A stretch of DNA of 64,000 bases from Actinacidiphila sp. DG2A-62. Lineage in GTDB: Bacteria > Actinomycetota > Actinomycetes > Streptomycetales > Streptomycetaceae. Below are positions 162-18,805 of the stretch, piece by piece. The first letter of the stretch is position 1. Each line of letters begins with the position of its first letter. Position numbers and translations under genes: made by a program. The notes below the pieces were generated by a model. The model saw nothing but the letters and a program-made list of their open reading frames with translations, was not told where the DNA came from and did not search any database. Location of the stretch: the NCBI RefSeq assembly GCF_035825295.1, contig NZ_JAYMGI010000002.1, positions 6,129,501 through 6,193,500 on the forward strand, in the 5' to 3' direction.

Positions 162-1148
162 TCAGGCATGATGGGACGCGTGCCGCTCGGTCAGCGCCTC
201 CAGCAGGAGCGCTTCGTCCACGGTGTCCTGCCCGGCGAGAATGGCGCGTTTGGCTGCAGATTCGGCGGCCTTGACCAGCTCGGCATGACTCAGCCCGGAT
301 GCACTTTCTGTCACAGCGTCCCACCGTAGTGTGCCGGTCTCCATTCCGGCCAGCCGTCTGCGCATAACGTGCACCGCTTGTTCCGGCGTGGGGGGACCGT
401 AGGTGGCGATCATGTCGAAGCGGCGGAACAGCGCCCGATCCAAGAGCTGGTGATGATTGGTACCGGCCACGACCAGGCTTTCGGATGGGGCCTCGTCGAG
501 GAACAGCAGGAATGAGTTCAAAATCCGGCGGGCCTCACCGACATCGTTGCCCGCAGTTCGCTCGGCCCCCAGGGCATCAAACTCATCGAACAGATACACG
601 GCCCTCGTCTGGGCGACGGCGTCGAAGACCAGGCGCAGTTTCGTTGCCGTCTCACCCATGAACCGGCTGATCAGCCCGTCCAGGCGGATGGTGAACAACG
701 GCAGCTTCAGCTCACCGGCCAGTGCCGCGGCGGTCATGCTCTTGCCGGTGCCCGGGGGGCCCGACAGCAGGATGCGATGAACAGGGGTGAAACCGAACCG
801 CTCCAGCCGGGCACGCTGCCGCTGCTCGTGCAGCACCCGATCCAGGGATGCGCGCAGCTCGCTATCCAGCGTCATGTCATCCAGCCGCGCGTCCGGATAC
901 CCGGCTGTCAGCAGATTGGACAGCTCACCGCGCGGCTGGACCACGGGCGTCGCGCCCCGGCCAGCGCCCCCGCGGCTCTGGTTCTGACGCGCTGCCTCGA
1001 CCAGCTCACGCAGCTCCACGGCGAACTTGCCCTGCCCCTGACGGGCGGACTTCGCCGCCACTTGCAGGGCCACGTTGTAGAAGCGATCGTCGTCGGCCTC
1101 GGCGTGGGCACTCACCAGAGCCTTCAGGTGCTCGGCGTTCGCTGTCAT
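162..1148 (-). CDS. AAA-family ATPase (328 aa)
   Basis: A cytoplasmic P-loop ATPase. Walker A GPPGTGKS lies at about residues 130-137 and Walker B YLFDEFDALG at 185-194. A sensor-1 Asn follows in VVAGTNHHQLLD near 231 and an arginine-finger-like ALFRRFD near 240. The first 120 residues are a helical, charged N-domain probably used for substrate binding. The ATG at 1148 was chosen because a purine-rich GGAAGGGTG sits at normal spacing upstream; the longer frame to 1304 has no ribosome site and low-complexity sequence. Related actinobacterial ATPases of this size often precede a subtilisin-like peptidase gene; the window ends 161 bases downstream, so this cannot be tested. The neighbour upstream is the AbiTii pair, 365 bases away. 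Family assignment is firm; substrate unknown. Confidence 0.88.
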   Translation of the reverse strand: MTANAEHLKALVSAHAEADDDRFYNVALQVAAKSARQGQGKFAVELRELVEAARQNQSRGGAGRGATPVVQPRGELSNLLTAGYPDARLDDMTLDSELRASLDRVLHEQRQRARLERFGFTPVHRILLSGPPGTGKSMTAAALAGELKLPLFTIRLDGLISRFMGETATKLRLVFDAVAQTRAVYLFDEFDALGAERTAGNDVGEARRILNSFLLFLDEAPSESLVVAGTNHHQLLDRALFRRFDMIATYGPPTPEQAVHVMRRRLAGMETGTLRWDAVTESASGLSHAELVKAAESAAKRAILAGQDTVDEALLLEALTERHASHHA

Positions 1149-1513
1149 AGGCCTGTCACCCTTCCGCGGCTCGCTGTCGAAATGTCGCCCTACTGGGATT
1201 CCTACCCGGGATCCCGAGGGAACCCCGTCCGCATCGTACGGCCCGCCGCTCTGTGCCGCCGCCCGTACGCGAGCAGCCCGAGAGGTCGCGGCGCCTACGC
1301 GCACAGTGCCGGAAGGCTGCGATCTTGGTCGGATTGCAACGCTCGTGAGGGACCAGGCGGCTCATCGCGTGCGCTCTGGAACGCTGCGCCGACGGTGACG
1401 ATCCGCGTGGTTGCGGTTGCAGGCCAGCCAGCTCTGCGGGGTAAACCCCACGGTGCGCAGGAAGGCTCGCCGCCGGGTGTCCTGTGACCACAGAACGCCG
1501 GTGTCACCACTTG
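1149..1513. other. intergenic region, no gene seen
   Basis: The 365 bases between the AAA ATPase start and the AbiTii gene stop hold only short overlapping frames without ribosome sites. The promoter of the ATPase gene is expected here, but no confident -10/-35 pair was picked out. Confidence 0.5.
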
Positions 1514-2224
1514 CTAACGATCGGTAGCAGTCTGCTCGCTGCTGGCTACAGCACGCGCTACGCCGCGGCGATGGGCGACTGCTATCGGTGCGGTGACGGT
1601 GACAGAGGAATTGTCACCCGTGGTGATGTTGATGTTCTGTACGGCTTGTGCGACCTGGTCGGGTGTCGGGTCCTTCTGGCCGTGTGGCATAGCTGCCCGG
1701 AGCTCGCCGACCAGTTGGACGAGTCGGGTCCGCACCTGGTCCAGGATGCCTTCCAGGGCTGAGGGGTCCACCGTCCAGTACAGCCTGAGCACCTGCCGGT
1801 GGGAGTTCTGGCTCATGAGCACGGCGAGTTCGGCAGCCATGGGCGGGGCGATCCGCACGCTGTCGCCTGGTTGTCCGGCGATCAGCGACTCGATCTGGCC
1901 GATGCTCTTCCCGAACCGGATCCCGTCGCCCAGGCTGTCGCGGGCGAAGTCGGGGAGGTCGAAGGAGCTAACCGGTTGTTCCCGGAACTTGAATCTGGCG
2001 GTGAGACCGTCCATCACCAGAGGTGCCGGGATCCTCCGGTAGTCGGGGATCGGCACATCCGTGCCTTCGTAGCCCTGGAGCTCCCGCAGTGCCCAGGTCC
2101 TCAGCGGTTGGGAGTGGGCCTGGCCTCCCAAGGCGATGACCTGGCGCAAGATAGGGGCCAACCTGCGGTTCTCATCGAGGACATCGTCCTCCATCCGGTC
2201 GAGGCGGCCTCGGCGGAGTTTCAC
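1514..2224 (-). CDS. AbiTii-domain protein, second of a tandem pair
   Basis: 236 aa if translation starts at the GTG at 2224, whose bases overlap the TGA of the upstream gene (GTGA), indicating translational coupling. An ATG at 2194 (MEDDVLDENRR) is the alternative. The first 55 residues match the AbiTii pattern: a run of helices with LRTWALRELQGYEG, then DVPIPDYRRIPAPL. A middle region of about 100 residues and a C-terminal stretch with NINITTGDNSSVTV follow. Its partner has the same architecture (NITGGDGSTFHIV), so the two are paralogues. Unlike the partner it has no C-terminal membrane helix. AbiTii was named from abortive-infection proteins; the biochemical role is not established, so phage defence is an inference from the family name and the pairing. 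Confidence 0.8.
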   Translation of the reverse strand: MKLRRGRLDRMEDDVLDENRRLAPILRQVIALGGQAHSQPLRTWALRELQGYEGTDVPIPDYRRIPAPLVMDGLTARFKFREQPVSSFDLPDFARDSLGDGIRFGKSIGQIESLIAGQPGDSVRIAPPMAAELAVLMSQNSHRQVLRLYWTVDPSALEGILDQVRTRLVQLVGELRAAMPHGQKDPTPDQVAQAVQNINITTGDNSSVTVTAPIAVAHRRGVARAVASSEQTATDR

Positions 2225-3053
2225 TTTGCCACGACCACCGTGGCAATCACGGCAGCGACGGCCGCGACTGCTGCGACAGCGCTCCAGATGACCGAGGTGC
2301 GGTGCCACCAGGGCTGCGGAGTCGGTGGCGTGGGTTCGTTGACGTTGGCGCTGGCGGTTGCTCCGCGGTCTGCCTTCGCGGTCGGGGCGACGATGTGGAA
2401 CGTGGAGCCGTCGCCTCCGGTGATGTTGAGGGCCTGTTGTGCGGCTGACTCGATCTGGCTCGGATTGGGATTCTGCTGGCCGGCGGGCATGGACGTTCTC
2501 ACTTCTGCAACGAACTGCGTCAGGTGGGTTCTGATGTGATCGAGGACGCCGGCGATGCTGGCTACGGAGACGTCCCAGTGCAGCGACGTGATGGTGGAGG
2601 CATCGTTTCCTAGCTGGTGCTGTTCCTGGGTCATCAACAGGGCGTACTCAGCCGAGCCGGGCGGGCTGAGGCGCAGCGTCCTGTTGCCGAGGGCCACCAG
2701 CGCTTCGAGTTCCTTTACCCCCTGCCGGATCGGTGCGCTCTCTCCGATTCCGCGGTCGCGGGCGGGGCGAGGGAGCTGTCCCGAGCTGATCCGTTGGGTG
2801 TTGCCCCGCACGATCTGACCCGGCAGGTAGAGGTCGGCCACGATTTCTAGCGCGGCCGGCACCCGGCGGTAGGGGGAAGCTCATCGGCTGACGGATATCC
2901 TTCCAGTTCCTTCAACGCCCAGCCTCGCAGCTGACGATGCTGCGCGTACCCTGCCAGCATCAAGCACTGCCGGAGGGCAGTAGCCAACGGGGTGTTGTCG
3001 TCCAGGACCGCGTGTTCGAGCCGTTCCAGCCCCCGGACGTCGGGTGTCGTCAC
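2221..3053 (-). pseudogene. AbiTii-domain membrane protein, one-base frameshift
   Basis: First gene of the AbiTii pair, read in two frames. Residues from a GTG at 3053 (VTTPDVRGLERLEHAVLDDN) run through LRGWALKELEGYPSADELP. The frame then breaks in a run of five C at about 2870 and resumes one base out as YRRVPAALEIVADLYLPG. Restoring one C gives DELPPYRRVP, the expected AbiTii continuation. The C-terminus ends in about 20 hydrophobic residues (SVIWSAVAAVAAVAAVIATV) that look like a membrane anchor, preceded by a Pro/Thr-rich linker. The stop overlaps the GTG of the next gene, so the two are one operon. The break could be real decay, a sequencing error in the C run, or slippage; the high preservation after the break argues against old decay. 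Confidence 0.72.
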
Positions 3054-4387: not shown

Positions 4388-5311
4388 TCACTGGTGGATG
4401 AGGACTACGGTGCGGCGGACTCCGGCATCCATCAGCGCCTGGGCGCGGTGCTGCCCGTTGATGTAGTGGCCTTCACCGCCGGGCTGGATCGCGTTGGCCA
4501 GGCTGAACAGGCTTCCCAGTGCCTGGCGCTGCCAGACGGTCGCGCCCTCCGCCCGGGCGTACTGGTCCGCGTAGCCAGCCATCGCCTCGGCAGGGACATC
4601 TTCGCGGCGGGCCAGATCCAGGACGGTGAGCGCGAGGGAGGTGATGGCGTGCCAGTCCCCGCCGTGGTACCAGCAGCAGGCCGTCCTGGCCGTGGGCAGA
4701 GCTGCGTGCAGCAGGCGCCTCCACCGCGGGGGGCCACCAGGCATGCACCGGGGTTCCCGGAACGGTTCGGGACGGGGCAGTCGACTCACCGGCCAGACCT
4801 CGAAGTACGGTTCGGGCTCCGGCTCGGCCGGCCGGGGCACGTATCCGGCGCCACGACCGGGGTCGACAGGAGAGCCGACCAGTTGGTCGAGTTGGTCGTC
4901 GGTCAGGGTGTGCCACCGCGGTATGTGGAGCTGGAAGGGCCCGACGTCGGCGAAGGTGACCAATTGCCATTGCTCCTCACCGTGGGCGCGCGGCGGGTCG
5001 GCCGACAGCTGCCGTTGTACCCACAGAGGGGGTTCGGGCTCGCGGGGGCAGTGCCGCTCCCAGACTGCCTCGGCGTAGCGCTCAGCGGCGTTTGTCAGGC
5101 TTGGGCTCTCGTCAACGGTCTGGGTGGCAACAGCGACCGGACGCAGCCCGGACGCGGTGAACAGCTGCAGCCGAAACGACGCCGTCGCCTTGAGCCCGAG
5201 GTCGTGACCGGGGTCGGGGTCGGGGCGGAACATGTGGTCGTCCACCACGAGTTCACGCGGCGCGGCCAGCTGCAATGCTGCCCTCACCTCAGCGGCGATC
5301 TCCTCGTCCAT
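4388..5311 (-). CDS. uncharacterised protein (307 aa)
   Basis: Not recognised. The ATG at 5311 (MDEEIAAEVRAALQL) was chosen because sequence upstream of it has no protein character, although no strong ribosome site is visible. The protein is soluble, rich in Trp, Pro and acidic residues, with no signal peptide or membrane helix. Near the C-terminus it has GGEGHYINGQHRAQALMDAGVRR. The GQHRAQAL core recalls the substrate-contacting G-x-HR motif of ParB/DndB-like proteins, but no other part supports such an assignment. It stands alone between a transporter relic and an insertion sequence. Confidence 0.6.
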   Translation of the reverse strand: MDEEIAAEVRAALQLAAPRELVVDDHMFRPDPDPGHDLGLKATASFRLQLFTASGLRPVAVATQTVDESPSLTNAAERYAEAVWERHCPREPEPPLWVQRQLSADPPRAHGEEQWQLVTFADVGPFQLHIPRWHTLTDDQLDQLVGSPVDPGRGAGYVPRPAEPEPEPYFEVWPVSRLPRPEPFREPRCMPGGPPRWRRLLHAALPTARTACCWYHGGDWHAITSLALTVLDLARREDVPAEAMAGYADQYARAEGATVWQRQALGSLFSLANAIQPGGEGHYINGQHRAQALMDAGVRRTVVLIHQ

Positions 5312-5572
5312 GCCGTGATCATGCCGCACCGCTAGCTCGTGCGTCACCGATCCGCGCAGACCAATGGGTTGACGTGGCTGGGCCCCGCATGGCTCTTCGC
5401 GGCTCTGCGATAGGCCCACTGGCAGGTTCGATTGGGAAGGAGGCACGGCATTGTCGAGATTGCGCTGACGGCATCCAGGGAGCGGCAGAAGCTGGGCCGC
5501 ACAAGTTTCCGGCGGACTGCACCTCGCGCTCACAGAGGCGGCAGCTCGGCCGTACCGAGGCCGTGGCATTAG

Positions 5573-7047
5573 CCTCAATACCGGTAATTAGGTGCATTCT
5601 GGTCGTTGTTGGTGGTATGGCGAGAGCGGGTCAGCTGAAGTCATGTGGTGGGCGTCTGTCGGACCGGGTCGCGGTCGGGGCGCTGACGCAGGCGTTTCCT
5701 GCGGGGCTTGTGGAAGAGATGTTGGCGGGGACGGGCCGGGTGCAGCAGCGGAACCGGCTCTTGCTGGCCCGGCTGGTTGTCTACTTCGTGCTGGCGATGT
5801 GCCTGTTCTCGGAGCAGAGCTACGAGGAGGTCGCCCGGCTGCTGACCATGGGTTTGCAGGGTGAGCGGCGGTGGGGGGCATCGTGAGTGGTGCCGAGTTC
5901 GGCGGCGATCTGGAAGGCGAGGTCGAGGTTGGGGGTGGTGCCGCTGCGGGCGTTGTTCGCGCGGGTGTGCCGGCCGGTTGCGGCGCCTGGCACGCAGGGC
6001 GCGTTCTACCGCGGCTGGCGCCTGACCGCGGTCGACGGCACCACGTTCGACCTGCCCGACACGACAGGGAACGTTGAGGCGTTCGGCCGTCCGCCGCGCT
6101 CCGGGCGGGGCGAGCAGAACGTCGGCTACCCGCAGATCCGCATGGTCGACCTTGTGGAGTGCGGAACCCACGCCGTCTTCGACGCTGCGCTCGGCCCTCT
6201 GCGGACCGGAGAGCAGGCCCTGGCCCGGACCGTCCTGGGGTCGCTCGGGCCGGGGATGATGCTGCTGGCCGACCGCGGCTTCTACGGCGTGGACTTGTGG
6301 TGCAAGGCCGCGGCGACCGGGGCCGACCTGCTCTGGCGAGTCCGCAAAGATCTCGTACTACCCGTCGTTGAAGAGTTGCCGGACGGCTCCTGCCTCACGG
6401 AGATCTTCGACCGCAGCGACATCCACCACACCCGTCGCGGGGTCCCCGCACGCGCGGTGGAATACGCCATCGCCGGCCACGAGGGCGTCTACCGACTGCT
6501 CACCACGATCCTGGACCCCGGCAGGGCCCCTGCCGCAGAACTGGCCGAACTCTACGCACAGCGATGGGAATTCGAATCCACCCTCGACGAGATCAAGGCG
6601 CACCTCGGCGGTTCCCGCCTGGTGCTGCGTTCCCAGCACCCCGACTGAGCCGAGCAGGAACTCTACGGCTTCCTCCTCGTCCACCACGCCATCCGGCAGC
6701 TCATGCACCAGGCCGCGCAGCAAGCCGATCACGATCCCGACCGGATCTCCTTTGCCCGCTCGCTGCGTGTCGTGCGCCGCCAGGTCACCGACCAGGCGGC
6801 GTTTCCCCCCGGCAGACTCGCCCGCGCGGTCAAAGCCACCCACGCTGAACTCCTCGAACGCCTCCTGCCACCACGACGCCGCAGGGCCAACTCCCCGTCA
6901 TCAAACGTAAAGTCGCCAACTGGCCCCTCAAACGCGCAGCCCACCAGGCTGCAGACCGCCCACGCGCCCCGGCCATCACCATTGTCAGCGCCACCAAACC
7001 CAAACGGTTCAAACGGGTCACAGTGCCCTAAGTTACCGGTATTGAGG
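5573..7047. mobile_element. IS4-like insertion sequence (inactive)
   Basis: Terminal inverted repeats cctcaataccggtaa occur at 5573-5587 and, reversed, at 7033-7047: 15 perfect bases with further partial match inward. The element is flanked on both sides by TTAG (5569-5572 and 7048-7051), the apparent four-base target duplication. It contains one transposase reading region with two in-frame stops and a frameshift, so it cannot move on its own. Confidence 0.85.
5617..7031 (+). pseudogene. IS4-family transposase with two stop codons and a frameshift
   Basis: The N-terminal IS4 domain (LTQAFPAGLVEEMLAG, then LLLARLVVYFVLAMCLFSEQ) leads into the DDE core. YRGWRLTAVDGTTFDLPD has the first Asp, MMLLADRGFYG the second, and YAQRWEFESTLDEIKAHL the catalytic Glu. 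An in-frame TGA at 5884-5886 splits the first from the second part and another TGA at 6646-6648 follows SQHPD; the same frame continues after both (EQELYGFLLVHHAIRQL). Near 6885 the frame shifts, and the expected basic tail (VIKRKVANWPLKRAAHQ) ends at the TAA at 7031. The gene is dead unless suppressed. Confidence 0.85.
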
Positions 7048-8442
7048 TTAGGGGACGCGTCGCTTGCGGACGGGCAGGATGCTCAACGCCATGAGCGTGC
7101 CATCCGGACGCACCGAGAGGGGGCCGTTCCAGCCGGCCGACTCGGCAGCATGCCACGATGCGCGGAGCCGGAAGGCTTCTTCCCGATATTCTTCGACGCT
7201 GCCCTTCTTGATCAGCTCATACAGGCTGTCGGCCATTCCGGAGAAGGCTTCGACACGCACGGAGTCAATGCGGAAGACATGATCGGTGCCGACGAATCGC
7301 ACACCGCCGACATGGAAATCGGCGTCGTCGGTACTTGATGTGGCGGCGGCGCTGGGAGTGTCGTAGTGCTCGCGTCCCTGGCGTGCTGTGAGGTACTGAG
7401 CGGTGTTCCGGCCCCCGCCCGAGAACGCGGACAAGCCGGCCGCGCCGGTGCGGGCGACGAGCTGGCCGAACCACGCGACGTCGCCTGTGTCGATCTGGAA
7501 GCCGTCGACGTTCCGGGCCCGCCTGCCCGCACGAGCCGGTATGCGGATGGCATTGGGGTACGGGACGCCCGCTTTGTCGGGGATTTCCTCGTCGGCGTTT
7601 CCGGGGGTGTTCGGCACGCGCAGGGGGAGAACGGCTTCTCCCGGTGACTGGAGGACATTGACGACGATCCCGCCCTGGCCGAGGATTTCGGTGGACAGCA
7701 CCAGGCAGGGAACGCTGTTCCAGGGACCGATCTGCATGCCCTCGGTGAGCTCGGATCCCTTGACCAGTTGTTGGATGGTGGTGCTTCGGGTCCGGCCGGC
7801 GCGCTTGCCGGCCTTTTGGTGGTTACCCCGGCAGGCCACGAAGGTGACTTTGGACGGCTCGCCGGGCTTCCACGCCTCGATGAGGTAGTCGGGCCGGGGT
7901 CGACCCGTCTTGTTGCGTTGCGAGACGGCCAGAGGCCACCCGGCCCGCAGAACGGTGCTGGTCTCCACGACCGAGACGATGTGGTCCGGATACCGCTCCT
8001 GGACGAGGTGCTCCGCTGTCGCGAGCCCGAAGCCGACGGCCAACTCCCGTGCCTGCATGGACTTGTACCAGCGCTCCGGAGTACGGCCCTTGTCGGTAAG
8101 GTCCATCGCGCCAGCCCGGTTGCCATCCAGCGCCTCGCAGAACTTCAGGCTCAGCCAGTGCTCGGCGAGCCCACGGGCCATGCCCTGGCCGGCCAAGGCG
8201 TATCCGCGGGACAGTGCGTGCAGAACTTGCCATGGCGTCAGCTCGATTCCAGACTCCGCACGGGTGTCGATCGGGACGAGCATCGGCTTCCTGCGCAGAG
8301 GTTCTTGGCCCTTCTCCCGGCGCTTCTTGTCGCGTGCCGCCCCGGCGGACTCGACGCGCCCGGCGAGTTCGGCGGTGGAGTGGATATGCAAGGTCGTCGA
8401 GCGGCGCAGCGCGTTCATGGTCTGTCGTGCTGTCCTCGCCAT
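7048..8442 (-). CDS. uncharacterised protein, possible nuclease-like fold (464 aa)
   Basis: Not recognised. The start is the ATG at 8442 (MARTARQTMNALRR) preceded by GTGGGGGAAAC, a good ribosome site. The protein is soluble, with a basic N-terminus. In the middle it reads RPRPDYLIEAW, then about eight residues, then KVTFVACRGNHQK. This spacing is reminiscent of a PD-(D/E)XK nuclease core (PD...hxExK) but with Ala-Cys-Arg in place of Glu-x-Lys, so if the fold is right it may be inactive. The TAA stop lies exactly in the TTAG duplicated by the neighbouring IS; removing the IS leaves the same stop, so the protein is not truncated. It sits near a tRNA-derived attachment-like site in an accessory region. 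Confidence 0.65.
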   Translation of the reverse strand: MARTARQTMNALRRSTTLHIHSTAELAGRVESAGAARDKKRREKGQEPLRRKPMLVPIDTRAESGIELTPWQVLHALSRGYALAGQGMARGLAEHWLSLKFCEALDGNRAGAMDLTDKGRTPERWYKSMQARELAVGFGLATAEHLVQERYPDHIVSVVETSTVLRAGWPLAVSQRNKTGRPRPDYLIEAWKPGEPSKVTFVACRGNHQKAGKRAGRTRSTTIQQLVKGSELTEGMQIGPWNSVPCLVLSTEILGQGGIVVNVLQSPGEAVLPLRVPNTPGNADEEIPDKAGVPYPNAIRIPARAGRRARNVDGFQIDTGDVAWFGQLVARTGAAGLSAFSGGGRNTAQYLTARQGREHYDTPSAAATSSTDDADFHVGGVRFVGTDHVFRIDSVRVEAFSGMADSLYELIKKGSVEEYREEAFRLRASWHAAESAGWNGPLSVRPDGTLMALSILPVRKRRVP

Positions 8443-9061
8443 GTTTCCCCCACGGTGATCGTGTGACCTGGCTGCCGCGGAACGTAGCCGGAGGCGTCGG
8501 GGCGCACACAAGTGCGCACACGGCGCACGGAACCGGTAGCACGAGACGGGGAGGGCAGCGGCGCTGAAGGCACCCGATGGGCACTGGCTCACTCGTAGTC
8601 GAAGTCGAAGGCCACGGGTCATCGAACACGAAGAGCGACGGAAGCCGTCCCCGTCAGGCGATGTGGCATCCCGGCTCACGTCTTCTCGCCGACGCTGCGA
8701 GCCCTTCGCGCCGGTCTCGGAAGTCCCCCCGCAGGGGCGTGTGCGACGCAGCGGATGCCTGTCGAAACTCTACAAAGTCAACTCGCCTATGGACGCTGTC
8801 GGTAAGGAGCAACGACCCTCGGGACCTCTTGCGTTTGTGGCATCCGTCGCAGGTCGTGGGGCTGCTTGTGCGGAACGCGGCCGGCGGGTGAGTCGGAACC
8901 GCAGGGTGCCCTCGGCGAAGGGGGAGGCGGTCGTCGCTCGATGACTGGCCGCTTGACCTGCGGCGCTGGCCGTACGGAGTGCGCTCAGTGCTGGTTTGTA
9001 GGGTTTTCCCGCCGAAAGAGCAACGGTCAGAAGACCGTGTGTGTTTTGGCAGGTACAAGAA
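8443..9061. other. intergenic region, no gene seen
   Basis: About 620 bases between the unknown gene and the tRNA fragment. Short frames exist on both strands but none has a ribosome site, protein-like composition or recognisable motif. Confidence 0.45.
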
Positions 9062-9095
9062 AGGCTCTGACCGGCATTTCTGCTGGTCAGAGCCT
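9062..9095 (-). terminator. hairpin downstream of the tRNA fragment
   Basis: Perfect 11-base stem (aggctctgacc paired with ggtcagagcct) with a 12-base loop, followed on the minus strand by TTCTT. Placed 11 bases beyond the tRNA 3' end, it looks like the native terminator of the tRNA gene whose 3' part is at 9107-9148. Confidence 0.75.
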
Positions 9096-9106
9096 CAATC
9101 CGGAAG

Positions 9107-9148
9107 TGCCCCCGGCAGGATTCGAACCTGCGCACACGGCTCCGGAGG
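9107..9148 (-). tRNA. 3' fragment of tRNA-Arg(CCG); probable attachment site
   Basis: Read on the minus strand, the bases form a tRNA anticodon loop CTCCGGA (anticodon CCG), the 3' anticodon stem GCCGT and a T-arm GCAGG-TTCGAAT-CCTGC. The 3' acceptor strand CGGGGGC with discriminator A completes it. The 5' half (acceptor, D-arm and 5' anticodon stem) is absent: past the anticodon loop the sequence is unrelated. A 3' tRNA half beginning at the anticodon is the classic footprint of a site-specific integrase that recombines in a tRNA gene. Because the native-looking terminator lies on the low-coordinate side, the integrated element would extend to higher coordinates. No intact copy of this tRNA and no integrase gene is visible in the window. 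Confidence 0.78.
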
Positions 9149-9735
9149 ACTGTTCGAATTGAAAAGTTTCCGCAGGTCAGCGCTTTACCTGACAGGGCAT
9201 CGGCTCCGCCGTCCCGCGCATGTCCCGCACGGAAGATTCGTCCATGGATGTCCAGATTTCAGCCCTGCCTTCTCGGCTTTGCATCCCGCGAGGTCCACGA
9301 GGTGTTCGAGCGGACGCGACGAAGCACTGCAGCGGCACTGGTGCGGCACCGCTGCGCCAGCCGGTGTGCCGGCGGCGTGGCGAGGCCCCTACTGCGCTGG
9401 CGGCGCTGGTTAGGGACGTTCGGCGGCGTGCTGGCCGTGGACGGTCCGAGACCCATGCCTGCACTCAGACAGTGGTGGGTATCAACGGCGAACTACCTCC
9501 AGATGCTGGGCTGGGCGACGCCCGGCGACGGTTGCAACAGGCGAGTCGGCTGACAGTCCGACCGCTCGCCTGCAAGAGGGCGTGCGCCTTACATCCGGGC
9601 AGGCTCGCGCGCCTGCGGCGCGGGTCCGCCCGGATCGGTGTCGTGGGCGCCGGTGTCGGTTGTGGTTCGTATGCTGCGACCATGCCAGACGCCTGAGATC
9701 ACAAGGACCTTCTTGACCTGCACGGCAAGGCGGCC
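9149..9735. other. intergenic region, no gene supported
   Basis: A 158-codon frame spans 9220-9696 but has no ribosome site and the Arg/Ala/Cys-rich composition typical of a shadow frame in GC-rich DNA. No RNA or repeat structure was recognised. Confidence 0.4.
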
Positions 9736-10029
9736 GTGCTGGAAGCGCAACGCGCTGCGGATGCTGCGTGGGCGGCTGTGGAGGACTACCGCAAGCGGGT
9801 GGACGCGGAGCGGAGGGCCGGTGCGGAGCCGCCGCAGCGCGGGGAGCGCCAGGTGCTGCGTCCCTGGACCGATGAGGAGGACAAGGCGTTCGGCGAACTG
9901 CACGCTGCCGCGGCCGCTGCGGGTGTCGAGCGGGTACGGGTTCTGGAAGAGGCCGGCCTCGCCTCGCCCTACGAAGTAGAGGTCGAGGTGCGCAAGCACT
10001 CCCGGAAGGCCCGCGCAGCCGACGGGTGA
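9736..10029 (+). CDS. small coiled-coil protein (97 aa)
   Basis: A short acidic/basic helical protein (VLEAQRAADAAWAAVEDYRK, later RPWTDEEDKAFGELHAAAA), predicted mostly coiled coil. Similar small proteins are known in Streptomyces accessory DNA but no function is assigned. The same frame extends upstream as HKDLLDLHGKAA to a TGA at 9694, four codons after an ATG at 9682. An original ATG start may therefore have been lost to a nonsense change, leaving the GTG at 9736. Modest support. Confidence 0.5.
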   Translation: MLEAQRAADAAWAAVEDYRKRVDAERRAGAEPPQRGERQVLRPWTDEEDKAFGELHAAAAAAGVERVRVLEEAGLASPYEVEVEVRKHSRKARAADG

Positions 10030-10340
10030 GACCGAATCGCCGCGCTGGCTGGCACGCTGACGCTTGAAGTGACTTAGCCGGGACGGGGGCGTCAGGCGGT
10101 GAGGTCCTTGCAAACGCAGCGACAGGTAGCCAGTGGCGATAGTTGCGGAAGCGAGAAACGGCTGGATTCCGGCTTGGTCTCAGTTTGTTTCTGATCATCC
10201 GATCATCCTCTCGTTGAGCTAAGGTGTGGATTTTGCGCGTAAGGGATGCTTGCTCGGCCGGTCTGCCAGGATGTTCTTCGGCGTGAGAGGTATAGGTATG
10301 GCCTGGTAGTCGGCGCTGATCTTTCTCCGAGGGGGCAAGT
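10030..10340. other. intergenic region upstream of the helicase block
   Basis: About 310 bases with somewhat lower G+C than surroundings and no convincing frame. A promoter for the downstream block is expected here but was not identified with confidence. Confidence 0.4.
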
Positions 10341-10931
10341 GTGGGTAAGAAAGTTCCTCCCGAGGTGCGTGAGAGGGCCAGGGAGCGGTCGTGTCCGGAC
10401 TGCCATGTCTTGCCGGGGGAGAAGTGTGCACCGGATAGGGGTGGGCGCTCTCAGTTGCACAGCGGGCGGATCTGGTCGGCAAGGAGGAGTATGGCGCCGA
10501 TGCCGGCGCGCCAGATTCTTCCCCTCGACGGGGAGCGCCACTATATGCCGCTGGTGCCCGACGACTCAGAGTCGCTTATCTTGTCGATCCACCAAAATGT
10601 TGTGCACGCGTTGGTGCTTGATCATGACGAGTTCGGCCTGCTCGTGGAGATCGCCATGCGGCAGGAGTCGCGGCTGCGAGGACACCCTCTGCCTCTGGCC
10701 AACCCCATTGTCGGCTTCTTCCTTGCTTCGCTGCGAAGCCTCACGCTGCAGGAGACTTGGGAGACTGCTGACCGACTGGTCGCTCGCGGTTTTGCCGTCA
10801 TGCCCGAGGAGCACGGATACGCGGTGGACGAGACTGCGATCAGGATCGTCGAGAGGTCGGCGCTGTCTGCTTCCTTTCTGATGAGTTGGAATGCGGCCAA
10901 GGTGGGATGGGACCGTGCGACGACCTCCTGA
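10341..10931 (+). CDS. small zinc-finger-like protein (196 aa)
   Basis: Starts at a GTG at 10341 with GAGGGGGC upstream. The N-terminus has CPDCHVLPGEKC (Cys-x2-Cys...Cys) flanked by basic residues and followed by HSGR. This is a CxxC...C(H)-type zinc knuckle seen in small actinobacterial and phage nucleic-acid-binding proteins. The remaining 140 residues are helical with no known motif. It precedes the SNF2/SWIM/nuclease genes on the same strand, and its stop overlaps the probable start of the next gene, so co-transcription is likely. The zinc-site reading is seen directly; DNA or RNA binding is inferred. Confidence 0.62.
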   Translation: MGKKVPPEVRERARERSCPDCHVLPGEKCAPDRGGRSQLHSGRIWSARRSMAPMPARQILPLDGERHYMPLVPDDSESLILSIHQNVVHALVLDHDEFGLLVEIAMRQESRLRGHPLPLANPIVGFFLASLRSLTLQETWETADRLVARGFAVMPEEHGYAVDETAIRIVERSALSASFLMSWNAAKVGWDRATTS

Positions 10932-11364
10932 AGACGGCGCGTTCGATGATGAACCCGGGCACAGAAGCCGCCTTGTGAGCAGAGGGCCGGGGGCGTTGGG
11001 GCGGGGAACGGGCCTTTCTCTCGATGGGCATAAAGAGGTGGGCAGAGTCCTGTCGGATATGCACGAGAGGCTTGTGGGAGTGGTTGTCGACCTGGGGGCT
11101 GCTTATCCTGTGCGTTCGCCGGGCGGTCGTGCCGTCAGGCGCATGGAGAATATCCTGTGCCTGCTGGCCTGTGTGCGATCGGAACTGGAAGAAACGATGT
11201 TCCGTGAGCACCGGGGGCGGGGGGATGGGTCCGTTTATTTTCCCAGGGCGTCTGCTGGTCCTGGTGGCCCGGTGGGGAATGCTCGGCCGGGCGGGACGGC
11301 GGTGCCGCACGGTGCGCGGTCGCAGGAGCGTGTGGGTGTCGTGGCGCTGCCTGAGTCCTTCTAG
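10915..11364 (+). CDS. uncharacterised small protein (149 aa)
   Basis: Not recognised. A GTG at 10915 overlaps the 3' end of the preceding gene by 17 bases; a GTG at 10975 is an alternative. The central part (GHKEVGRVLSDMHERLVGVV through RAVRRMENILCLLACVRSEL) is a well-formed helical stretch with balanced composition, which argues for a real protein. The ends are Gly/Pro/Arg-rich and disordered. It ends 48 bases before the SNF2 gene and is probably part of the same transcript. Confidence 0.5.
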   Translation: MRRPPEDGAFDDEPGHRSRLVSRGPGALGRGTGLSLDGHKEVGRVLSDMHERLVGVVVDLGAAYPVRSPGGRAVRRMENILCLLACVRSELEETMFREHRGRGDGSVYFPRASAGPGGPVGNARPGGTAVPHGARSQERVGVVALPESF

Positions 11365-11412
11365 GGCGGAGTTGGTTCGTGATCGTCGGATTTTTTGTGT
11401 GAGGAATGTGCA

Positions 11413-14400
11413 GTGGCGGGCCGTGCGGTGATGGCCGGGGTCGGTATCGGCGAGGGCCTCGCAGCGGGGTCGGAGCGTTTCGCGCGGGCCGACCCGGAGG
11501 TCTTTTATCGGGTGCTGAAGGGGAATGCTCGCCGGGAATTGCCTGCGCCCGGGCTGGAGGAGGAGATTCTCCGGCGCTGCGCGGGCGGGGAACTGGGTGT
11601 GCGCGAACTGGAGGTGCTGCTGCTGCGGACGGCCGGATCCGGGTGGCGGCGTGTGCGGGAAGCGGCCATGGACGCGGTGGCCTCGTATCCGGCCTGGGCG
11701 GTGAGCGTGCTTGCCGCTCACGCCCAGACCGGTGGCTGCTCGGTGCCGGAGTATCGCGACGAGAGCGAGGGCCGGCCGCCGGACCAGAGTTTCCGCGCCG
11801 TCGCGGTGATCAGTGCGCCGGCGGAGCTGGTCGGGCACGGTGGCCCCAGCCGTGTCCTGAAGCAGGCCCGGCAGGCAGCCGCTGTGCAGGTGCTCGCTCA
11901 GTTGGCGGGAGTGCTTGCGCCGCGTGTCGCCTTTCCCGAGTCCAGCCCGCAGCCGGTGCGTCTGCGGGTCGGCGGCCACCCGGTGGCCGCGCTCAACGAG
12001 TTCGCGCAGAGCAGCGGCATCAGCATGCCGGTCTACGGCGGGCTGACGCGTACCGGGCCGGCGCACCGGCCGCGGTTCACGATCGAGGTTTCCTGCCGGT
12101 TCCCGCCGGACGGTCCGATGGTCCACGCCTCGGGCAGCGGGCGCTCGAAGGGGGACGCGCGCACGGCAGCGGCGGCGTCCCTGGTGGCCCAGTTGCAGCA
12201 GTTGATGCTGCCGGGCCAGGCCCGTGGCGAGAACGTGGTCCCCCAGGTGCCTGCTGCGGTCGAGAGGGCGGGCACGGGTGCGCTCCCGCGGCCCGCGTCG
12301 TCGCAACCGCAGACGCGGCGCTCCTCCGCCGAGCAGACGTCGGAGGCTTCACACCCGGCGTCCTGGGAGTCGGTTCTGGCCGACCCGCGTGCTCGGCTGG
12401 AGTTCCGGCCCGGCAGGGCGCCGGGCGACGGAACGTTCCGGGTCTTGGGCGCGGGCGTGGCGCGCAGCGCGCCGTTTGGGGAGCTTCTGCCCCTGCTGCT
12501 GGCGTGCTCCCGGGATGCGCCGGCCGGAGGGGAGGTGCAGGCGGGCGGCTGTCGTCCGCCGTGGGGTGGAGTACGTGCGGGACGGGCGCGTGTATGCCGG
12601 TGTCAGCGACAGCGGATTCGCCGCATGGCGTGTGGGCCGCCCGGACCGGGTTCTGCAGGCTCAGGCCGAGGCTCTGGCCGGTGCGGAAGCCGGGCCGGCG
12701 CAGGCCGCCACGGTCTGGCTGGTGTGGCACGAGATCGCCGACCTCCTGGTCCGCGGGCCAGGGGCCCGGCTGACCGTGGGGGAGGGCCCGTTCACCGGGC
12801 GGCCGGTCCTGCTCGATGCACGGCAGGCGGCGGCTGCGGACGCCGCGTCATCCGCCAAGGTGATCGTGCCGTCGATGATCTTGCGTATCTCAGCCCCGGC
12901 CGGGCCGTCCCGCGGTGTCCCGGCCAAACTGATCGGCTGGCTCATGACGACCGGACCCGACGGCGTGGCCGCTTCCCCAGTGGTCTGGTCGGCGCTGGGG
13001 GAGGCCGAACGCGAGGGGTGCCGCCGCCGGCTTCGCCGCGCTGCAGTGACCTGCCCGCAGCTCGAACCGCTGGCCCGGCAACCCGACCCCGCCACGGCGT
13101 TGCTGGAGCCCAGGACCGTGCTGGCCGTGCACGAGTGCGCCGCGGCTCTGACGGCGGCAGGGCTCCCGGTGAGGTTCGACGCGCAGGTGGGCAACGCGAT
13201 CGCCGTGCACGCGAGCGTCGGCTCGCCGACCTCAGCAGGACCCGGGGCGCTGTCCTTGGACCGCCTGGTGGATTTCCGGTGGCGCTTCACCATGGCCGGG
13301 CAGCCGTTGACCCCGGCCGAACTTGACGCTCTGGCCCATGCCGTCGAGCCGCTGATCCGATTGCGCGACCAGTGGGTGCTCGTCGACCCGGAGACGCAGG
13401 CCCGTGCCCGCCGCCCGCGCTTGGACCCGCTCCCGGCCGGCCAAGCGCTCCTTGCCGCGCTGACCGGAACGGTCAGCATCGACGGCGCGGCCGTCGACTG
13501 CGTCGCCGAAGGAGAGCTGCAAGCCGTCGTCGGCCGGCTCCACCAACCGGAGACGGCGCCCGCGCGTGTTCCCGCAGCGGTTGCCACCACGCTCCGGGAC
13601 TACCAGCACCGCGGCTTCCAGTGGCTGGCGGCGCGAACGGACCTCGGGCTGGGCTGCATCCTCGGCGACGACATGGGGCTGGGCAAGACGCTGTCCGCGC
13701 TGGTGCTCCACGCCCACCGCCAAGCCCGCGCCGAGCGTCCCAGCCTGGTGGTGTGCCCGACCACGCTGTTGGCCGGCTGGGTCCGCGAAGCCGCCCAGCA
13801 CACCCCGGCCACCCACGTCGTCCGCTACCACGGCCCGCAACGCACGCTCGCCGACGTACGGCCCGGCACCCTCGTCGTCACCTCCTACGGAACCCTGCGT
13901 GCAGACCTGGAGAAGCTGGCGGCACTGCGCTGGGACATGCTCACTGCCGACGAGGCCCAGTTCGCCAAAAATCCCGCCAGCGCCACCGCCCGCGCCCTGC
14001 GGCGACTCGATGCCCGCGTCACTCTCGCACTGACCGGGACACCGCTGGAGAACAACACCACGGACCTGTGGGCGCTGCTCGACCTGACCAACCGCGGTCT
14101 GTTCGACACCATCCGCGGCTTCCGCGCCGCCTACGGCAAACCCGCCGAGGACGATCCGCGCGGCCCCGCCGCCCAGCGGCTGCGCAACCTCGTCCAGCCT
14201 TTCATGCTGCGCCGCACGAAGGACGATCCGGCGATCCTGCCCGAACTGCCGTCCGCGGTCATCAAGACCCAGCCGGTGCCGCTGAGCCCGCAGCAGACCG
14301 GGCTGTACGACACCGTCGTGCGCCGGCACCTCGACCAGATCGAAACCGCCGACGGCATCCAGCGCCGCGGCAAGGTCCTGGCCCTGATCTCCGCGCTGCG

Positions 14401-15007
14401 GCACATCTGCAACCACCCCGACCAGTACCTGCACCGCGAGCCCGCCGCCATCGCCACCGAACCCGACTGCGCCGCCCGCTCCGGCAAACTCCAGGCCTTG
14501 GACGAACTGGTCGCCGCCATCGCCGAACGCGACGAGCACGCACTGGTGTTCACCGTCTCCGCCCGCACCGCCCGCCTGCTGCACCACCACTTCGAGCGCC
14601 GCGGCCACGCCTGCGCACTGATCACCGGCGACGTTCCTGCCGCCGCCCGCGAGCAGACCGTCGACACCTTCCAGACCGGCCGACACCGCCTGCTGATCGC
14701 AACGACCCAGTCCGCCGGCTACGGTCTGACCCTCACCCGGGCCCAGCACGTCGTGATGTACGACCTGCCCTGGAACCCGGCGAAAGAAAAACAGGCCATC
14801 GACCGCGCCCACCGCATCGGCCAGAACCGCACCCTGCACGTCCACCGGCTGCTCGCCGAAGGCACCGTCGAAGACCACATCGACACCCTGCTCGCCGGCA
14901 GACGAGAACTCGCGGGCGCTCTGGTCACCCAAGGCGAAGCAGCCCTGAGCGAACTGAGCACGCACGACCTGACCGCTCTCGTCACCCTGAAAGCCCCCAC
15001 CCCGTGA
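11413..15007 (+). pseudogene. SNF2-family ATPase with N-terminal dsRNA-binding-like domain; one frameshift
   Basis: One long gene read in two frames, about 1,197 residues after correcting one base. The GTG at 11413 follows GAGGAA. Around nucleotides 11975-12210 lies a double-stranded-RNA-binding-type domain: HPVAALNEFAQSSG, then RFTIEVSC, then the SKGDARTAAAASLVAQLQQL helix. Near 12548 the frame shifts by one base (removing one G from cgggc restores it). The second frame carries the bacterial SNF2-associated region (LVDFRWRFTMAGQPLTPAE) and a complete Swi2/Snf2 motor. Its motifs are LGDDMGLGKT (I), VVTSYGT, TADEAQFAKN (II, DEAQ), LTGTPLENN (III), FTVSARTARLL, ATTQSAGYGLTLTRA (V) and QAIDRAHRIGQ (VI). 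Such motors translocate on double-stranded nucleic acid. The stop overlaps the start of the SWIM gene. The shift may be a sequencing error, as both halves are fully preserved. Confidence 0.85.
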
Positions 15008-16149
15008 AACCACCCACCCCCACCCTCACCGACCCCTGGGCCCGCGCGTGGGCAGCCGAGACCACCCGCCTCATGCCCGCTCCGCTCACCGCCCGCGCCG
15101 CCCAACTCCGCCACGACGGCGCCATCAGCCAGGTCACCACCACCTACGGAACCATCCGCGCCGAAGTCAGCAGCGGCAGAAACAACCCCGCCCACACCGC
15201 CGAACTCCACCTGCCCGCCTACAGCGCCGTGCAGTGGGAGAAGATCACCACCGCCCTCGCCGGCAGACCCGGCCTGCTGACCGCACTGCGCGCCGGAACC
15301 CTGCCTGCCGGACTCGTCGATCCCGCCCACACCGCAGGGCTGCCGCTCGCCCCCGCCCCCGGGGAGATCACCACAGGCTGCACCTGCCGAACACCAGGAA
15401 CAGCCTGCCTCCACGCGGCGGCCCTCGCCCACGAAGTCACCGGCCAGCTCCAGCAGCGAAGCGGACTGCTCCTGCTCACCCTCCGCGGCCTGACCCCGGC
15501 CAGCCTCATCGACCGCCTCACCCCGCCGGCATCACCCACCCCCCACAATCCCAGCGGAGCGACTCGCGCGAAAACCTCCACCCCAGGTCCCAGGAATTCC
15601 CCCGACGCCTTCGCCCAGCGGCCCGACCCCTTTCTACCGAGCAAGCCCGACCAGGAATTCCTCCTCATCGACGCGGCCTTGCGCGCACGACAACTTCTGG
15701 ACGGCCAACCCCTGATCACCGACCCCTTTATCGACGCCGTCCGCGCCCTCGCCGCCCCGCACGGACAAGCCCGGCTCACCGCCGTCGCCTCCCGCGCCGA
15801 CCGCACCCCGGCGGAAACCAAGCACATCCTTCTCGCCTACCGACACAACGGACCCGGCGGCGCCCACACCGCCGCGCACCCCGACAACAGCGACATCGAC
15901 GCCGGCCTCGCACGCGAGTGCCTGCACACCGTCGCGACCCGTCGCACAACCGGCGGAGAACTACGCCTGGACAACGGCCACATCACCGACCTCGGCGCCG
16001 GCATCCAACTCCGCTTCGGACCTGACAACCGCTGGCACCCCTACACCACCAGCCCGACCGGGCACTTCATCCCGGCACCGGGCGCCGACACCAGCGCCAC
16101 CACCGCATACGAGGCAGCCCGCAGGGCGCGCCGCCAACGCGGCAGATAA
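15004..16149 (+). CDS. SWIM zinc-finger protein (381 aa)
   Basis: The GTG at 15004 overlaps the TGA of the SNF2 gene (GTGA), so translation is coupled and the two products are probably made in fixed ratio. The SWIM motif C-x-C-x6-C-x-H is seen as CTCRTPGTACLH at nucleotides 15379-15414. The first 120 residues form the usual SWIM-protein N-domain; the C-terminal half after a Pro/Ser-rich linker (about residues 185-210) is unassigned. SWIM/SNF2 pairs are known in actinobacteria, where the zinc finger is thought to give nucleic-acid or partner binding to the motor. Function inferred only from that partnership. The start of the linker may mark two separable domains. Confidence 0.85.
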   Translation: MKPPTPTLTDPWARAWAAETTRLMPAPLTARAAQLRHDGAISQVTTTYGTIRAEVSSGRNNPAHTAELHLPAYSAVQWEKITTALAGRPGLLTALRAGTLPAGLVDPAHTAGLPLAPAPGEITTGCTCRTPGTACLHAAALAHEVTGQLQQRSGLLLLTLRGLTPASLIDRLTPPASPTPHNPSGATRAKTSTPGPRNSPDAFAQRPDPFLPSKPDQEFLLIDAALRARQLLDGQPLITDPFIDAVRALAAPHGQARLTAVASRADRTPAETKHILLAYRHNGPGGAHTAAHPDNSDIDAGLARECLHTVATRRTTGGELRLDNGHITDLGAGIQLRFGPDNRWHPYTTSPTGHFIPAPGADTSATTAYEAARRARRQRGR

Positions 16150-16320
16150 CCAGCTTCCGTCGAGACAGCACGCCAGTGCCAGTCCCGGCGGGAGAGCAGA
16201 AGGTCCGTCGGGCGATCATCCATGCCTGTGCGCTCCAGGTGCACGTCCGAACGTGCGAATCCTGGAAATAAAACGCGCGGTCGCGGCGCTGGTGATGATT
16301 CCGGATTGGTCAGTTGGGGG

Positions 16321-17208
16321 GTGGGGTCGCTGAGGTTGTTTCGCACCGTAGGCGGGGTGCACGAGGTGATGTTGCGGTCCGCCGGAGCTGAGGTCGAGGT
16401 GCAGCGTCTGGTCGAGGCGCACATGGACACGATGCTCGGCGTGCGGTTCCTGGCGAGCGAGTACGGCACCGGTCCTGTGCACGGGGGCCGGATCGACTCG
16501 CTGGGGATCGACGAGAACGGCTCGCCGGTCGTGGTCGAGTACAAGCGCGGGCGCGACGCCGGCGTGATCATGCAGGGCTTGTTCTACCTGGCCTGGCTGA
16601 CCGACCACCGCTCGGAATTCCAAGCCCTCGTCCGCGACCGGTTCGGACCGGCGGCTGCGTCCGGGGTGCGGTGGCACGCGCCCCGGCTGATCTGCGTCGC
16701 GGAAGACTTCACCCGCTATGACCGGCACGCGGTCCGTGAGGTCCGGCGCAGCATCGACCTGGTGCGCTACCGGCTCTTCGGCAGCGAACTGATCGGCCTG
16801 GAGACGGTCGTGGCCGCCGGAGCGGCGAGCCACAGGCGGCAGACAAGCGCCCGCTCCCTCCGGCCTGCGAGGCAGGGACCGGCCGGGGCGAGCGCGGCCG
16901 GGGAACTGCGGGCGGCGCTGGACGAGACGCTGGTGGCGCTCGGAGGGGACGTGCGGCGGATCGAGCGCAAGCAGTACCGGGCCTACCGGCGGCTTCGCAA
17001 CTTCGCCTGCGTCGGCCGCAGCCAGCGCCGCGAAGTCCTGGTCTACCTGCGAGCCGACCCCGAACACGTCGACCTCATCCCGGGCTTCACTCGCGACGTG
17101 ACCGGCGTGGGCCACCACGGGACCGGCGACCTGGAATTGCGGCTGCGCTCGGAGAAGGATCTGGAACGCGCCTGCGGGCTGCTTCGGCTCAGCTACGCCG
17201 CCGCATAA
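16321..17208 (+). CDS. PD-(D/E)XK nuclease with C-terminal DUF5655-like domain (295 aa)
   Basis: The N-terminal half contains GGRIDSLGIDENGSPVVVEYKRG, i.e. the Asp...Glu-x-Lys core of restriction-like/NucS-type nucleases (metal-dependent DNA cleavage). The C-terminal 110 residues (from about ELRAALDETLVALGGDVRRI to LRSEKDLERACGLLRLSY) match the DUF5655 pattern often fused to such nucleases. The GTG at 16321 was preferred because LRLFRTVGG is where family members begin and a G-rich site precedes it. The gene lies 171 bases after the SWIM gene on the same strand and may belong to the same functional unit. The TAA stop is the target site duplicated by the next IS, so the product is complete. Confidence 0.8.
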   Translation: MGSLRLFRTVGGVHEVMLRSAGAEVEVQRLVEAHMDTMLGVRFLASEYGTGPVHGGRIDSLGIDENGSPVVVEYKRGRDAGVIMQGLFYLAWLTDHRSEFQALVRDRFGPAAASGVRWHAPRLICVAEDFTRYDRHAVREVRRSIDLVRYRLFGSELIGLETVVAAGAASHRRQTSARSLRPARQGPAGASAAGELRAALDETLVALGGDVRRIERKQYRAYRRLRNFACVGRSQRREVLVYLRADPEHVDLIPGFTRDVTGVGHHGTGDLELRLRSEKDLERACGLLRLSYAAA

Positions 17209-17248
17209 GACTTCGTTTCTTATGGCGCGATCGTTCGTTGTTCCGTGC

Positions 17249-18081
17249 ATGACGGATCTGGTTGAGCGGTTGGTGCCGGACGAGTTGTGGGTGTTGTTCC
17301 GGCGGGTGGTGCCACCGACTGAGGTGATACGTCCGCAGGGCGGCGGCCGACGCCGGGCTGGTGACCGCGAGGCTCTGGCTGCGATCATCTTCGTGGCGAC
17401 GTCGGGCTGCACGTGGCGGCAGTTGCCGCCGGTGTTCGGGCCGGCCTGGCAGACGGTCTACCGGCGGTTCGCCCAGTGGAGCCGGGAGCGGGTCTGGGCG
17501 CGGTTGTATCGCGTGATCCTCGACGAGCTCGGGGCGCGGGGCGAGTTGGACTGGTCGCGGTGCGCTATCGACTCGGTCAGTCTGCGGGCGACAAAAGGGG
17601 GCCTTTGACGGGACCGAATCCGACCGACCGCGGCAAACTCGGATCGAAGATCCACCTGATCACCGACCGGAACGGGCTGCCCCTGTCCCTGGGGATTTCC
17701 GGCGCGAACATGCACGACAGCCAGGGCCTGGAGCCGCTCGTGCGAGGCATCACGCCCATCCGCTCCCGCTGCGGGCCCCGGCGACGGAAGCCGGCGAAAC
17801 TGCACGCCGGCAAGGGCTACGACTACGACCACCTGCGCCGATGGCTCCGCGAGCGCGGCATCCGCCCCCGCATCGCCCGCAAAGGCATCGAGTCCTCACA
17901 ACGGCTGGGCCGACACCGCTGGGTCGTGGAGAGAACCGTCTCCTGGCTGGCCGGCTGCCGACGGCTCCACCGCCGCTACGAACGCAAGGCCGAGCACTTC
18001 CTCGCCTTCGTCGGCATAGCCGCAATCCTCATCGGCCACCGCCGACTCGCCCGCCTAGATGCGCAAGGGCATTCAGTGTGA
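17249..18081 (+). CDS. IS5-family transposase in two overlapping frames
   Basis: Frame one encodes the N-terminal domain (MTDLVERLVPDELWVLFRRV, TSGCTWRQLPPVFG) and the first catalytic Asp in RCAIDSVSLRATKGG, then stops at 17608. The second frame, one base back, continues LTGPNPTDRGKLGSKIHLIT with the second Asp region, then GRHRWVVERTVSWL with the catalytic Glu and an RRLHRRYERK tail. The switch falls at ACAAAAGGGGGCC (about 17592-17604), a slippery A/G run that would permit -1 programmed frameshifting, as known for several IS5 members. Alternatively it is simply a mutation. Start taken at the ATG at 17249; the ATG at 17222 lies inside the terminal repeat. Confidence 0.8.
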
Positions 18082-18552
18082 GGTTCCAACGCTGCTGGTG
18101 CAGACACGCAAGGGCGCGATCTCAGGCTCCGTCATGACCTGCTCCAAGTGGCCGTCCGCCTCGTCCAGCTCCGGCCAGGCGACGACCCCTGGCATGTTGT
18201 CGGCCAGGAAACCCTCCACGATCGGACCAAGTTGGTCGGCAACCCTGTAGGTGCCGTCGAACGGCAACTCCTCCGGAGGAACGGAGCCGGTCGAGCACCG
18301 GAGCTGCCCGGCCTGCCCGTCGTGCCACACATAGAACGTCGCCACTCCGGAGAAGCCCAGCTCGCGGATGCGTTCCCGGATGCCGGCAGCAGTCTGTTCG
18401 AAGGCAGCGACCACCTCGGCAGCGGACAACGGCCGCCCGTCCTCGTCACCTGCACCCAGCGACCAGGTGTTCGTCTCCCACTCCACCCGCCGGTTACCCG
18501 GCTCCAATGCAAGCGGCTCTTCGGCCACCTCAGCGATCCATGTCAACAGCAC
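18073..18552 (-). CDS. uncharacterised passenger protein (159 aa)
   Basis: Not recognised. It lies inside the IS inverted repeats, opposite to the transposase and overlapping its last 9 bases. The GTG at 18552 (VLLTWIAEVAEEPLALEPGN) is the likelier start; the ATG at 18594 lies in the terminal repeat itself and would take its ribosome site from flanking DNA. The protein is acidic, soluble, rich in Trp and Glu, with AAGIRERIRELGFSGVATFY VWHD in the middle (two segments). Similar small acidic proteins occur as solitary genes in Streptomyces and recall immunity-type proteins, but no motif proves this. Presence inside an IS suggests mobilisation of a host gene. Confidence 0.6.
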   Translation of the reverse strand: MLLTWIAEVAEEPLALEPGNRRVEWETNTWSLGAGDEDGRPLSAAEVVAAFEQTAAGIRERIRELGFSGVATFYVWHDGQAGQLRCSTGSVPPEELPFDGTYRVADQLGPIVEGFLADNMPGVVAWPELDEADGHLEQVMTEPEIAPLRVCTSSVGTSH

Positions 18553-18805
18553 TGAAAGCAGTATCCCCGCCTGGAAGGGGGTGGGGCCGACCATAAGAAA
18601 CGATGTCTAAGTCTCCGCCGCACGGCCAATGATCGATTTTCATCCTGAATTCGCAGGTCGGGCCGCTGGTGTGGGTGGCGATTGACGCGCTCGCGCTGCT
18701 CTCGGCCGTGATCGTTAGCAGGTGATCATCTGCCACGGGCCGGTTCGCGGATTCTGGGGTGGCGCATCCGGGCGTCTCGTAGGTTCCGCAGCGGGAGGGA
18801 GGCGC

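Follow-up and report, generated by a model that had tools for sequence, protein, structure and literature searches.

SNF2 cores are double-stranded DNA (dsDNA) translocases, and the A-form duplex is what double-stranded RNA-binding domains (dsRBDs) recognise; to our knowledge, dsRBDs in bacteria are carried mainly by RNases, RNase III for example. SWIM proteins have been linked to SWI2/SNF2 ATPases of the SsoRad54 type (PMC5512222). The literature searched, which lay mostly outside subscription journals, held no description of dsRBD-SNF2 or dsRBD-RNB fusions in bacteria. Here we analyse a 64,000-nucleotide stretch (the window) from the genome of Actinacidiphila sp. DG2A-62, in which a SNF2-type ATPase gene with N-terminal dsRBDs is followed on the same strand by a gene for a SWIM-type zinc-finger protein. 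An earlier note on this DNA had joined these two genes with the nuclease gene that follows, as a candidate three-gene system in which a motor sensing double-stranded RNA (dsRNA) or hybrids recruits the nuclease. From sequence comparisons we conclude that the conserved unit is two genes, a dsRBD-SNF2 ATPase and a translationally coupled SWIM protein.

The dsRBD array in the window SNF2 protein is real, as judged by profile and fold comparisons. PF00035 (dsrm) matches the N-terminal part in two stretches at 6.9e-14 (Pfam; 52.6 bits, cut-off 23). Profile A1 spans residues 12–258 of the protein, and the solved structures hit by a profile of this region include TRBP, Loquacious, MLE, Staufen and RNase III. 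The more N-terminal of the two dsRBDs has diverged and is joined to a helical domain. In the canonical dsRBD all three stretches that would contact RNA persist: helix 1 has LNE, the loop reads GPAH, and helix 2 has SK..AR. In an AlphaFold model, residues 184–259 adopt the α-β-β-β-α fold, with predicted local distance difference test (pLDDT) values of about 51–76 by ten-residue block, and Foldseek aligns them with the dsRBD-dsRNA complex 1di2 (TMt 0.80, root-mean-square deviation 2.5). The model as a whole, built on two sequences and with a mean pLDDT of 60, is of modest quality and is trusted for the canonical dsRBD part alone. Phage and viral-contig collections held no relative of the array, a result counted as neutral, and with no match there a phage origin of the array was rejected.

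The core that follows matches SNF2-rel_dom (1.6e-56), Helicase_C (1.3e-22) and DUF3670 (6e-20) in Pfam, so that the earlier reading of this gene as a SNF2 ATPase with a dsRNA-binding N-terminus is upheld at both ends. Motifs I, II, III, V and VI are all intact, and the nearest solved structure is 1z63, the Sulfolobus SNF2/Rad54 helicase (3.6e-81). Against NF058637, the profile of the SCO1167/SCO6262 family helicases, the window core fragment covers positions 85–932 and scores 747.5 bits, below the cut-off of 1200.

In genome samples of 150–200, the core and the array differ greatly in frequency. Of 150 Streptomycetaceae genomes, 121 have the SNF2 core family, in most cases as open frames of about 950–1060 residues, and none of 20 plain SNF2-core proteins examined matches the dsRBD profile. 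The array is found in nine of the 150, with SNF2 fusions confirmed, and in a class-wide sample of 198 one other genome matches, solely through a canonical dsRBD in an unrelated protein. The dsRBD-SNF2 relatives combine the SNF2 core with a canonical dsRBD and with one or two helical-plus-dsRBD units; they occur in Prauserella salsuginis and, often, on linear plasmids of Streptomyces, among them S. clavuligerus pSCL3 and S. vietnamensis pSVL1. Intact plasmid copies include WP_331724657 from S. longwoodensis and WP_009998414 from pSCL3. In a tree of the core alone, with the N-terminus excluded and one relative (L056) left out, dsRBD-bearing and dsRBD-free proteins fall on opposite sides of a single branch (Shimodaira-Hasegawa approximate likelihood ratio test 96); the exact positions of the window and Prauserella proteins, both on long rows, are weakly supported. 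On this tree and these counts we conclude that the dsRBD-bearing pair is a distinct, rare lineage of a widespread actinobacterial SNF2/SWIM pair.

Two neighbourhoods are recorded here as side observations. On plasmid pSITFR-21a a CoiA-family competence-like gene lies just upstream of the dsRBD-SNF2 gene (L029 5107–6306, +). Outside the Streptomycetaceae, genome G217 encodes a small putative zinc-motif/helix-turn-helix protein with a C-terminal canonical dsRBD (L093 250–1848, +), adjoining an open reading frame (ORF) suggestive of a DnaB-type helicase; the domains at this G217 locus were assigned by eye.

The SWIM gene begins at GTG 15004 on the stop codon of the SNF2 gene, forming the GTGA overlap from which the coupling of the two had been proposed, and a four-base overlap is present in all eight annotated plasmid loci. 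The SWIM protein carries a CxCx(7)CxH-type motif whose Cys and His residues are conserved among its relatives (alignment A5), one ligand being replaced in one of the eight rows; the match to the Pfam SWIM profile is weak (E 0.33, 11 bits, under the 19.6 cut-off). When all block proteins were compared by tblastn with 16 related dsRBD-SNF2 loci, a SWIM gene was found directly downstream of the SNF2 gene in 14, which bears out the pairing; the count is 15 if a disrupted copy in Prauserella is included, and no SWIM gene is recognisable in L056. As a SWIM partner also stands beside many of the dsRBD-free SNF2 genes (13 of 20), the SNF2/SWIM pair is probably ancestral.

RNB exoribonucleases encoded on Streptomyces plasmids, and in genomes G113 and G116, end in the same helical-plus-dsRBD array, an uncommon design for an RNase; WP_328973362 is one such fusion. 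These arrays are 31–34% identical to that of the window and retain the full RNA-contact signature, and on one contig of 273 kb (G116:C4) one SNF2-type and one RNB-type fusion lie about 33 kb apart. The fusion of the array to an RNB exoribonuclease supports RNA as its ligand. NBC_00239 had pointed to a conserved MoxR/VWA/RNB operon; as the other tested loci do not share it, this idea was rejected.

The domains, the pairing, the separate lineage and the RNB parallel are features of the sequences themselves; for the action of the pair, we infer a ligand, a substrate and an outcome. Our preferred reading, to which we give a probability of about 0.4, is an A-form-duplex-sensing DNA motor that would clear foreign or conflicting DNA of polymerase or R-loops, the SWIM protein acting as its adaptor. 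The dsRBDs would dock on A-form duplexes, which could be R-loops or folded nascent RNA on heavily transcribed DNA, or dsRNA made where transcription converges. Working as a dsDNA translocase of the Rad54 type, the SNF2 core would then pump along the attached DNA and push off RNA polymerase or R-loops. Its SWIM partner would bind DNA or protein, and the outcome would be that foreign or conflicting DNA is silenced or cleared by a unit without a nuclease of its own. Such an action might serve defence, competition between plasmids or upkeep of the replicon; to a conflict or defence role we give a probability of 0.4.

The surroundings of the pair suggest a role in defence. An IetA-like ATPase gene and an IetS-like subtilase gene form an IetAS defence pair at the left edge of the window, where a gene reading like a site-specific integrase lies just outside. 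IetAS also adjoins the dsRBD-SNF2 gene in Prauserella, its IetA being 57% identical to that of the window. On an S. longwoodensis plasmid a complete Lamassu system, LmuA-LmuB-LmuC, comes right after the dsRBD-SNF2/SWIM pair (L024 12078–16920, −), and a PD-T7-3-like gene stands alongside the pair on pSCL3. LmuB in G091 and SoFic in G071 are likewise found near dsRBD-SNF2 loci. The window copy lies among IetAS, AbiTii and PDC-S18; for the lineage at large the enrichment of defence neighbours is not significant.

Several points weigh against the duplex-sensing defence reading. Defence neighbours number about 9 of 106 for dsRBD-SNF2 genes versus 2 of 72 for dsRBD-free SNF2 genes (Fisher p about 0.1), and these neighbour sets are unmatched and were chosen non-randomly. 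Most SNF2 copies on plasmids have lost the GPxH loop and keep the basic residues of helix 2, so RNA binding by those copies may be weaker. SNF2/SWIM pairs that lack a dsRBD are common and are probably housekeeping in function, and both the phage-defence and the RNA roles of the pair members are ones that we infer.

We consider the chances about even that the window copy itself is a decaying remnant, its island being crowded with damaged mobile elements; such decay would be compatible with any function of the family. Its SNF2 gene is read in two frames, the dsRBDs in frame 1 to about 12543 and the core in frame 2 from about 12545, and the GC content by codon position likewise switches frame between about 12450 and 12560. 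The SNF2 gene had been counted as the first of three large genes in a row on one strand; the order stands, and no single open frame spans the SNF2 gene in the window. Every relative examined has a single unbroken SNF2 frame, and for this reason a programmed frameshift was rejected and the break is attributed to mutation or sequencing error rather than recoding. The frame-broken copy may be inactive. Decay is also in keeping with the IS4-type transposase to the left of the block, whose interruption by in-frame stops indicates that the region contains decaying mobile elements. On the other hand, neither the motor motifs nor any of the downstream frames is damaged, and the assembly (8.6 Mb in two contigs) has a completeness of 95.6%, below that of most relatives, which makes an error in sequencing or assembly possible.

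A quite possible alternative, tentatively held, is that the pair serves plasmid or host housekeeping, as a RapA/CSB-like factor guided by RNA duplexes to stalled polymerase or R-loops on the replicon that carries it; it would then play no part in defence. The wide distribution of the core, mostly without a dsRBD and often with SWIM, is consistent with this, as is the presence of the dsRBD version on large linear plasmids, which must manage transcription-replication conflict; the occurrence of the same array on RNB exoribonucleases would fit equally. The rarity and patchiness of the dsRBD version and its recurrent siting beside defence systems argue the other way.

It is unlikely that the dsRBDs are protein-protein or structural modules that bind no RNA, the pair then acting on DNA only. 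The divergence of the first unit and its fusion to a helical domain, the absence of the GPxH loop from many plasmid copies, and the fact that dsDNA is the substrate of SNF2 motors would all accord with such a role, whereas the full RNA-contact signature in the window copy and the RNB fusions, and the fact that this array was independently joined to an RNA exonuclease, fit an RNA ligand.

The neighbouring nuclease has a NucS-like N-terminus (0.005), an ID...EYK motif and the DUF5655 domain that had been predicted for it (1.8e-7; Pfam), and it matches PADLOC PDC-S18 at 1e-125 over profile positions 18–322 of 365. None of the 16 related dsRBD-SNF2 loci has it, and with 52 of 150 Streptomycetaceae genomes carrying it, it is far more common than the pair. 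In genomes that have both, the window's own aside, it is on other contigs, and 12 nuclease neighbourhoods examined contain no SNF2 or SWIM relative. The possibility raised in the earlier note, that the three genes are never adjacent in homologues, is therefore realised for the nuclease and not for SNF2 and SWIM. Thus, even though the three genes are adjacent on one strand in the window and the nuclease, apparently intact, is a defence candidate in its own right, a motor that recruits it in a three-gene system is very improbable and was rejected on these gene neighbourhoods, with which the 72-base gap at the SWIM-nuclease junction agrees. The nuclease is best seen as a separate defence candidate outside the SNF2/SWIM unit.

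Features of the window and of related loci. Positions are those of the window unless a locus (L number) is given.
Feature	Position	Strand	Evidence
SNF2 gene, N-terminal part, frame 1: helical domain and divergent dsRBD, then canonical dsRBD	11428..12543	+	
Canonical dsRBD within this part	about 11980-12215		
Reading-frame break between dsRBD part and core	12450..12560	+	frame comparison, codon-position GC
SNF2 core, frame 2: DUF3670, SNF2-rel_dom, Helicase_C	12545..15007	+	Pfam, motifs
SWIM-type zinc-finger partner	15004..16149	+	sequence; SWIM motif 15379-15414
NucS-like PD-(D/E)XK and DUF5655 nuclease	16222..17208	+	Pfam; PADLOC PDC-S18
Insertion sequence right of block, DUF4096 transposase	from 17222		Pfam
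Phage_zn_bind_8 zinc-knuckle protein	10341..10931	+	Pfam 2e-6
Small ORF, probably not a gene	10891-11364		
IS4-type transposase, interrupted by in-frame stops, left of block	5275-6648	+	
IetA-like AAA ATPase, left edge of window	162-1304	-	9.2e-69
IetS-like subtilase, just past window edge	L019 17022-19670	-	2e-30
AbiTii, complete	1514-2308	-	1.6e-34
Second AbiTii, truncated, in tandem with first	2221-2862	-	3.1e-12
RNB exoribonuclease with C-terminal array	L016 6969-8795		
RNB exoribonuclease with C-terminal array	L017 6312-8753		
RNB exoribonuclease with C-terminal array	L049 9777-11840	-	
RNB exoribonuclease with C-terminal array	L050 6537-9362		

The block genes are all on the forward strand, and the start codon of the SNF2 gene is uncertain (GTG 11428 or TTG 11395). 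Ahead of the three large genes, the earlier note had placed a zinc-knuckle protein and a small protein of no known kind. The first is confirmed by its Pfam family; neither it nor the small ORF has a relative in any of the 16 related loci by tblastn, and by this comparison the zinc-knuckle protein is not conserved with the SNF2/SWIM unit. The small ORF is probably no gene, because it has no Pfam family match, its codon GC is non-coding-like and it has no relative near the other loci. Of the two boundaries described for the block, the insertion sequence on the right is confirmed and the tRNA-derived attachment-like site was not found: ARAGORN found no tRNA in the window, a permissive Rfam search found none in 6600–18800, Rfam at its gathering cut-off gave nothing in the whole window, and neither the window nor the 20 kb to its left holds a tRNA or attachment-site trace.

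That a conserved SNF2 lineage bears dsRBDs, and that plasmids of the same kind also encode an exoribonuclease with this array, suggests that the A-form duplex is sensed as a signal of danger or conflict in some bacteria. If true, this would be a functional parallel to dsRNA sensing in eukaryotes, and the intact plasmid copies make A-form-duplex sensing directly testable. A more speculative extension, which we regard as doubtful, is that the array is a portable dsRNA address tag on Streptomyces linear plasmids, the RNB copy being directed to dsRNA and the SNF2/SWIM copy to the DNA from which that dsRNA comes, so that the two would jointly survey foreign or conflicting transcription through duplex RNA.

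Comparison with known systems places the pair apart from each of them. PDC-S18, a single-gene phage-defence candidate of PADLOC, is matched by the window nuclease, yet is independent of the SNF2/SWIM unit. The helicases of DISARM (DrmD), Zorya (ZorD) and Dpd (DpdE) have a related SNF2 motor domain, but the matches are limited to the motor and the block genes match none of the other components of these systems; among the six block genes, no DISARM component such as DrmA, DrmB or DrmC was found beyond motor-level DrmD matches, the rest of the window not having been fully scanned, and Zorya is represented solely by motor-domain matches to ZorD, with no ZorA or ZorB. The SWIM-associated SWI2/SNF2 ATPases of the SsoRad54 type resemble the window protein in having 1z63 as the nearest core and in their association with SWIM, and differ in that dsRBDs, dsRNA and RNB are unmentioned in their description (PMC5512222). 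The RNB-dsRBD exoribonucleases of Streptomyces plasmids have the helical-plus-dsRBD array in common with the window protein, whereas their effector is an RNA exonuclease, with no SNF2 motor and no SWIM partner. Members of the SCO1167/SCO6262 family, the common actinobacterial SNF2/DUF3670 proteins, share the SNF2 core and the DUF3670 region, and many of these dsRBD-free relatives likewise adjoin a SWIM gene; in contrast to them, the window protein has an additional N-terminal dsRBD array, and the cores that bear such an array form a lineage of their own.

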